From: Heterohyrax brucei
Lineage: Eukaryota > Chordata > Mammalia > Hyracoidea > Procaviidae
Length of the DNA: 64,000 nucleotides
Assembly: GCA_028571685.1 (NCBI GenBank)
Contig: CM053156.1
Coordinates: 82,773,049-82,837,048, forward strand
Direction of reading: 5' to 3'
Position 1 is the stretch's first letter. Every line of letters starts with the position of its first letter. The position numbers and the translations under genes are program-made. A model generated the notes under the pieces. The model was not told where the DNA came from. It saw only the letters and a program-made list of their open reading frames with translations, and ran no database searches. Positions 8,588-9,115 of this stretch are shown here, piece after piece.

Positions 8588-9115
8588 GAGGGCGGGGCGC
8601 GGGCTGCCCGCCAGGGGGCGCCAGGTCTCCCCGAGCGCCCCTGCTCCTGGATGGGCCCCAGCAGAGGGCGGGGCGCGGGCTGCCCGCCAGGGGGCGCCGG
8701 GTCTCCCCGAGCTCCCCTGCTCCCGGATGGGCCCCCGCGGAGGGCGGGGCGCGGGCTGCCCGCCAGGGGGCGCCGGGTCTCCCCGAGCGCCCCTGCTCCC
8801 GGATGGGCCCCCGCGGAGGGCGGGGCGCGGGCTGCCCGCCAGGGGGCGCCGGGTCTCCCCGAGCGCCCCTGCTCCAGGATGGGCCCCCGCGGAGGGCGGG
8901 GCGCGGGCTGCCCGCCAGGGGGCGCCGGGTCTCCCCGAGCGCCCCTGCTCCAGGATGGGCCCCCGCGGAGGGCGGGGCGCGGGCTGCCCGCCAGGGGGCG
9001 CCGGGTCTCCCCGAGCTCCCCTGCTCCCGGATGGGCCCCCGCGGAGGGCGGGGCGCGGGCTGCCCGCTAGGGGGCGCTAGGTCTCACCAAGCACCCTTTC
9101 TCCAGGATGGGCTCC
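8588..9115 (+). repeat. 76-bp tandem array, 7 copies, with CTCF-like cores
   Basis: Seven head-to-tail units have exact 76-bp spacing; the shared GGGCTGCCCG starts at 8601, 8677, 8753, 8829, 8905, 8981 and 9057. Each unit holds CCGCCAGGGGGCGCC (8608, 8684, 8760, 8836, 8912, 8988; CCGCTAGGGGGCGCT at 9064), which matches the CTCF core consensus, all in the plus orientation. Most are preceded by the GC box GGGCGGGGC. Units 1 and 7 are diverged edge copies and the interior ones differ at only one or two sites. A 76-bp period is not a multiple of 3, so the long forward ORFs across it cycle frames and are artefacts. Confidence 0.9.

Follow-up and report, generated by a model that had tools for sequence, protein, structure and literature searches.

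Tandem repeats that carry CTCF sites have been described in human cells, where the repeats bound by both CTCF and its paralogue BORIS (CTCFL) are mostly simple tandem repeats (PMC5007689). For paired sites occupied by the same two proteins, less than 100 bp between the motifs is stated (PMC5973138). Tandem CTCF sites are presented as insulators in the protocadherin and β-globin clusters (PMC7087399). DXZ4 on the X chromosome consists of tandemly repeated 3-kb units; together with FIRRE and ICCE, it carries paired CTCF-YY1 sites (PMC6985041). For the skin of elephant and mammoth, chromosome-conformation data have been analysed (PMC13142303). Here, we describe a 76-bp minisatellite with seven CTCF-like sites in one orientation that lies at the 5′ end of the last intron of a gene, most likely DOK5, of the hyrax Heterohyrax brucei. 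The window, i.e., the whole stretch of DNA that was analysed, comprises 64,000 nucleotides (C17:82,773,049-82,837,048 of the 3.49-Gb genome); positions are counted from its first letter. In the titles and abstract openings of the papers listed on CTCF with DOK5, with tandem repeats or VNTRs (variable numbers of tandem repeats), with insulators and with elephant, also in combination with Hi-C, the array was not described.

The array occupies positions 8585-9112 of the plus strand, where Tandem Repeats Finder reports 6.9 head-to-tail copies with a period of 76, 95% matches and 0% indels (score 937). The first six units hardly differ from each other, and the seventh, at the 3′ edge, has diverged; unit-to-unit identity ranges from 64 to 76 of 76 positions. 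Its G+C content is 83.5% with 64 CpGs, and, together with the preceding exon, it is spanned by a CpG-island-like stretch (8301-9200; G+C 0.75, CpG observed/expected 0.71). CTCF-like sites were scored with the counts of the JASPAR matrix MA0139.1, for which the highest possible score is 26.1 bits. Scanned with this matrix, the array presents seven sites at exact 76-bp steps, all on the plus strand: 8605-8623 (site 1, TGCCCGCCAGGGGGCGCCA, 19.1 bits), 8681-8699, 8757-8775, 8833-8851, 8909-8927 and 8985-9003 (sites 2 to 6, 18.5 bits each), and 9061-9079 (site 7, located in the diverged unit at the edge; TGCCCGCTAGGGGGCGCTA, 19.0 bits). Neighbouring 19-mers are separated by 57 bp. A preliminary description of this DNA had already read such an array from the letters; the scan bears it out, with no low-scoring unit in the range of 18.5-19.1 bits. 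The near-perfect core that it had seen in each unit stands as the exact 15-mer CCGCCAGGGGGCGCC in six of seven; the seventh unit departs from it and reads CCGCTAGGGGGCGCT, scoring equally well. The GC box that it had assigned to most units is present in all of them, GGGCGGGGC occurring once per unit in 7/7 (8590-9054, plus strand; starts at 8590, 8666, 8742, 8818, 8894, 8970 and 9046). When 4,000 random 94-mers were generated with the dinucleotide transitions of the array, a score of 17 bits was attained on either strand by 7 of them (0.175%). As the seven sites derive from one by copying, they count as one event and not as seven.

To approach the host gene, both strands of the window and of 80 kb on each side (224 kb) were scanned roughly for coding and splice signals. 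Ranked first is the exon at 8455-8575 (plus strand, 121 nt, read from its first base with one base over at the end), followed by an exon of 190 nt that lies some 47 kb ahead of the window and encodes part of a PTB (IRS-type) domain. In the latter, 58 of 62 residues are identical to downstream of tyrosine kinase 5 (PDB chain 1j0w); the other five PDB sequences listed are DOK1 (two), DOK2 and FRS3 (two), with DOK4 and DOK6 not among them. The gene belongs, thus, to the DOK family and is most likely DOK5, that identity being the one observation that speaks for DOK5 over DOK4 and DOK6. Pfam and PDB searches with the 40 amino acids of the 8455-8575 exon returned no match, and a literature search for a peptide string was likewise negative. 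Splicing of the 8455-8575 exon to a last exon that starts at 20958 keeps the reading phase; the coding part of the latter (20958-21022, plus strand) contributes 21 residues before the stop, and we take this peptide to resemble the DOK5 tail. The 8455-8575 exon is, in this arrangement, the penultimate coding exon, and the last intron extends over 12,382 bp (8576-20957, plus strand), with the array at its 5′ end. The position right after a splice donor, also given in the preliminary description, is confirmed by the donor AAG/GTAAGC at 8573-8581, and the first CTCF-like 19-mer starts 30 bases past the last base of the exon. A gene desert between Dok5 and Cbln4 is described in a study of the Tfap2c-Bmp7 locus with engineered inversion lines (PMC4288730).

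Genome-wide match counts given here for the unit, the 15-mer and the core patterns are lower bounds. The 76-bp unit found seven matches, all inside the array at 8585-9112; a dispersed repeat or mobile element is unsupported, given that the unit was matched at the array only. The exact 15-mer has 39 matches, six of them in the array, and a comparison of the array with eight loci drawn from these matches (L001-L008) yielded two short local matches (30 and 41 bp; E up to 0.01) and none for the remaining six.

The frame of the 8455-8575 exon is open on the plus strand over 8428-9144, with no stop at the splice donor or anywhere in the array. Retention of the following intron would add about 190 residues, likely a mere effect of the G+C content. 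Five more open frames of 166-210 residues (two on the plus and three on the minus strand) also cross most of the array; since many open frames follow from 83.5% G+C and 76 is not divisible by 3, a coding array was rejected. A PRDM9-like 13-mer does not occur in 8301-9200.

The distribution of CpGs within the units is uneven. Those at positions 2 and 12 of the 15-mer are retained in 7/7 units. Counted from the unit table, with CpG assumed to be the original state and with units that share their history and are, thus, not independent, CpG places 9, 14, 16, 25 and 35 of the unit are intact in 35/35 copies, and places 2, 38, 48, 52, 64 and 76 have lost 13 of 42. As read from the sequence, this pattern would fit either a low level of methylation in the germline or constraint on the segment that extends from the GC box into the core. 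According to a published study, CTCF binding is clearly hampered by methylation at core position 2 and not at position 12 (PMC6222495); as the position-2 CpG is present in all units, binding to the array, if any, should therefore be switchable by methylation.

On balance, we regard it as probable that the array is a single-locus minisatellite grown from a GC-rich founder with a CTCF site and that, where unmethylated, it is bound by CTCF or BORIS and acts as a directional stop for cohesin. The array would have arisen when a GC-rich stretch, with a GC box and a CpG-bearing CTCF site that was presumably functional, was copied in tandem. In the unmethylated state, CTCF—and, in male germ cells, BORIS—would be expected to occupy several units at once, with the 57-bp gaps probably too short to accommodate a nucleosome between sites. 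A bound array would constitute a short, one-directional stop for loop-extruding cohesin, a step that we infer from what has been published on tandem CTCF sites and from the convergent-orientation rule. It would favour contacts to the right, namely of the DOK5-like gene body with sequence past its 3′ end, and it would fall silent upon methylation at core position 2; an effect on splicing of the neighbouring exon would be small at most. A function as insulator or loop anchor is plausible. If bound, the array would provide a natural experiment on the number of same-way CTCF sites needed for a boundary and on the tuning of that number, in steps of 76 bp.

Elsewhere in the 64-kb window, at least 17 bits are reached at only three places, i.e., 57131 (plus), 19078 (plus) and 12519 (minus). 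These single sites score 18.7-20.1 bits, in a window that includes the 3′ end of the gene. The one at 12519-12537 (18.7 bits) is the nearest one facing the array, 3.4 kb away, and that at 19078-19096 (19.8 bits) is located in the same last intron. In the 80 kb to the left of the window, there is one CTCF match of at least 15 bits (15.7 bits, minus strand), the only such match in the 160 kb of flanks.

Several observations weigh against the proposed CTCF-bound stop. The array site is not of the best-scoring type, as an A in place of the G at position 6 would raise its score by 3.5 bits. The 19-mer is as variable as the rest of the unit (3/19 versus 9/57 positions, p = 1.0), and its last two bases include CpG place 38, which was lost by decay in 2/7 units. 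A quieter block at unit positions 4-37 (1/34 versus 11/42, p = 0.009) was picked post hoc and could also be the product of gene conversion; selection on the CTCF site is not shown by the between-unit variation. On neither strand of 8301-9200 is there a full YY1 match (AANATGGCG or ATGGC), in contrast to the paired sites of DXZ4, FIRRE and ICCE, and the 80 kb to the right of the window contain no CTCF match of at least 15 bits on either strand, leaving 12519 as the sole close opposing site. In favour of the proposed stop, the three changes of the seventh unit within the 19-mer together gain 0.48 bits over the consensus, which is matched by 5.0% of 969 transition triples.

The same variation bears on the possibility—unlikely in our estimation, yet deserving serious consideration—that the array is an ordinary GC-rich minisatellite, in a CpG-dense stretch of exon and intron, whose founder resembled a CTCF site by chance and which is methylated in most tissues, unbound and without effect. 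The unit changes are readable as neutral decay and homogenisation, with a 19-mer that is not specially conserved. At the rate of 7/4,000 found for random 94-mers at 17 bits, some of the thousands of GC-rich arrays expected per mammal may hold such a site by chance. Moreover, four of the ten core-array places scanned in this genome (see below) have one or no 14-bit match, and GC-rich arrays with a partial core, therefore, arise readily. What speaks against a chance resemblance is that both CpGs of the 15-mer were kept in 7/7 units while others decayed, hinting at low germline methylation, and that the scores of the array come close to those of the window's three highest-scoring single sites.

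That the array controls inclusion of the 8455-8575 exon, as the preliminary description had supposed, is not borne out. Bound CTCF might stall the polymerase just past this exon and so raise its inclusion, and the 30 bases between exon and first site are in keeping with this; however, the donor at 8573-8581 is strong, as a rough splice-site model gives it 7.2 bits out of a possible 8.6, a score reached by 9 of the window's 7,377 GT dinucleotides (two strands taken together, the donor included); the acceptor is pyrimidine-rich; and, at 121 nt, this penultimate coding exon could not be skipped without a frameshift in the last one. We consider such control very unlikely; a weak literature search on DOK5 splicing showed nothing for or against it. 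We give no more credence to an action through RNA or DNA structure, in which G-runs past the donor would aid splicing or a quadruplex or R-loop would form. G-runs after donors are known splicing enhancers, and four-run G patterns are found in the array region, with three on the minus strand; but the donor is already strong, and the plus strand offers just one such pattern (8583-8603). An imprinting-type control element, bound on one parental allele, would combine a tandem repeat, a CpG island and methylation-sensitive CTCF sites. The H19 control region has these same ingredients, and the CpG-island-like stretch as well as the CpGs at core positions 2 and 12 in 7/7 units agree with them. The ZFP57 hexamer TGCCGC is, however, absent from both strands of 8301-9200, and we know of no imprinting of DOK5, so that this interpretation appears improbable in the extreme.

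CTCF-core minisatellites are not unique to the DOK5-like locus in this genome, which harbours several sister arrays. A loose triple-core search gave 55 matches versus 8 for a reversed-pattern control, corresponding to 11 distinct places after grouping, of which ten (all except C21:80.6 Mb) were covered by the matrix scan. At six of these ten, there are at least four CTCF matches of at least 14 bits—C7 (14), C20 (8), C8 (7), the DOK5-like array (7), C23 (6) and C16 (4)—and at four, one or zero (C1:2.16 Mb, C5, C10:70.7 Mb and C21:84.3 Mb). A stricter search for periods of about 60-90 bp retrieved 22 matches (control 0), distributed over C7 (13), the DOK5-like array (5), C8 (1), C9 (1) and two C1 places (1 each). 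At periods of about 90-120 bp, there were 3 matches (control 0), of which C1:2.29 Mb accounts for two and C8 for one; for cores ending in GGCA, there were 7 (control 2), including four at C10:94.04 Mb. The matrix scan of further array places extended to all except C1:2.29 Mb, C10:94.04 Mb and the two C1 places of the stricter search; it revealed four matches at the C9 place. A cluster of three sites lies at C24:0.88 Mb. Within tandem repeats or close to them, L050 (C20:82.528 Mb), L052 (C23:71.308 Mb), L049 (C16:88.366 Mb), L053 (C9:43.825 Mb), L043 (C8:0.705 Mb) and L025 (C24:0.878 Mb) have three to eight CTCF-like sites each. The C8 and C24 places lie less than 1 Mb from the contig start; at C8, the repeat has about 43 units of 21 bp, a minority of which carry the sites, too closely spaced for all to be bound.

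The array on C7 (L034, C7:150.959 Mb, 1140-2220) is longer and stronger than that of the DOK5-like gene. In this 71-bp minisatellite, a single strand bears all 14 CTCF-like sites, and 12 of these score 21.8 bits. It shares with the DOK5-intron array a CTCF core in short units and a single orientation, but differs in site number, in a CCACC core without the position-2 CpG and in an unrelated unit sequence. Taken together, the sister arrays form a small panel differing in site strength, spacing and CpG content. In a more far-reaching scenario, which we put forward as speculative and rather doubtful, a lineage-specific, copy-number-variable and methylation-gated CTCF/BORIS array would separate the 3′ end of DOK5 from the gene desert beyond it by a directional boundary, with the repeat number tuning insulation and with sister arrays genome-wide. 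If true, minisatellite growth would have made a natural dial for insulation.

Apart from the array and the gene, the window contains a second homogeneous array, the purine repeat GGAGGGGAGGA at 26621-26876 (11 bp, 23 copies, 98% alike), and an open frame on the minus strand at 46785-47159, whose translation resembles a fragment of a mariner-type transposase.

Compared with the known systems, the likeness to DXZ4, which the preliminary description had invoked, is loose. With DXZ4, FIRRE and ICCE, the array shares tandem CTCF sites within a transcribed gene, and this part of the comparison holds; however, it is an intragenic minisatellite of 76-bp units and not, like DXZ4, an array on the kilobase scale with units of 3 kb. 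Furthermore, those loci are on the X chromosome and have paired YY1 sites, whereas contig C17 is not known to be X and the array region lacks a full YY1 match. In the protocadherin clusters, CTCF sites are far apart and situated at promoters. The tandem insulators there resemble the array in having same-orientation sites in a row and differ from it in having been tested by editing (PMC7087399). The spacing of the array agrees with that of the 2xCTS elements, i.e., two adjacent CTCF sites, as its 57 bp between 19-mers are below 100 bp; in contrast to these elements, which are defined by chromatin immunoprecipitation (ChIP), with two sites and promoter-like marks, the array has seven copies, is intronic with no known promoter, and has been recognised from sequence alone (PMC5973138). 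The VNTRs co-bound by CTCF and BORIS in human cells likewise cluster CTCF sites in short tandem units. Their enrichment was seen by ChIP and a duplicated, shorter half-site is dominant, whereas the array, a prediction from its letters, carries a whole 19-mer in each unit (PMC5007689). With a CTCF motif by the matrix in every one of its short tandem units, the array has the make-up of a CTCF-site minisatellite; thus, within the published class of CTCF-bearing tandem repeats (PMC5007689), the DOK5-intron array looks like a candidate member that, in the papers listed here, has so far escaped description.
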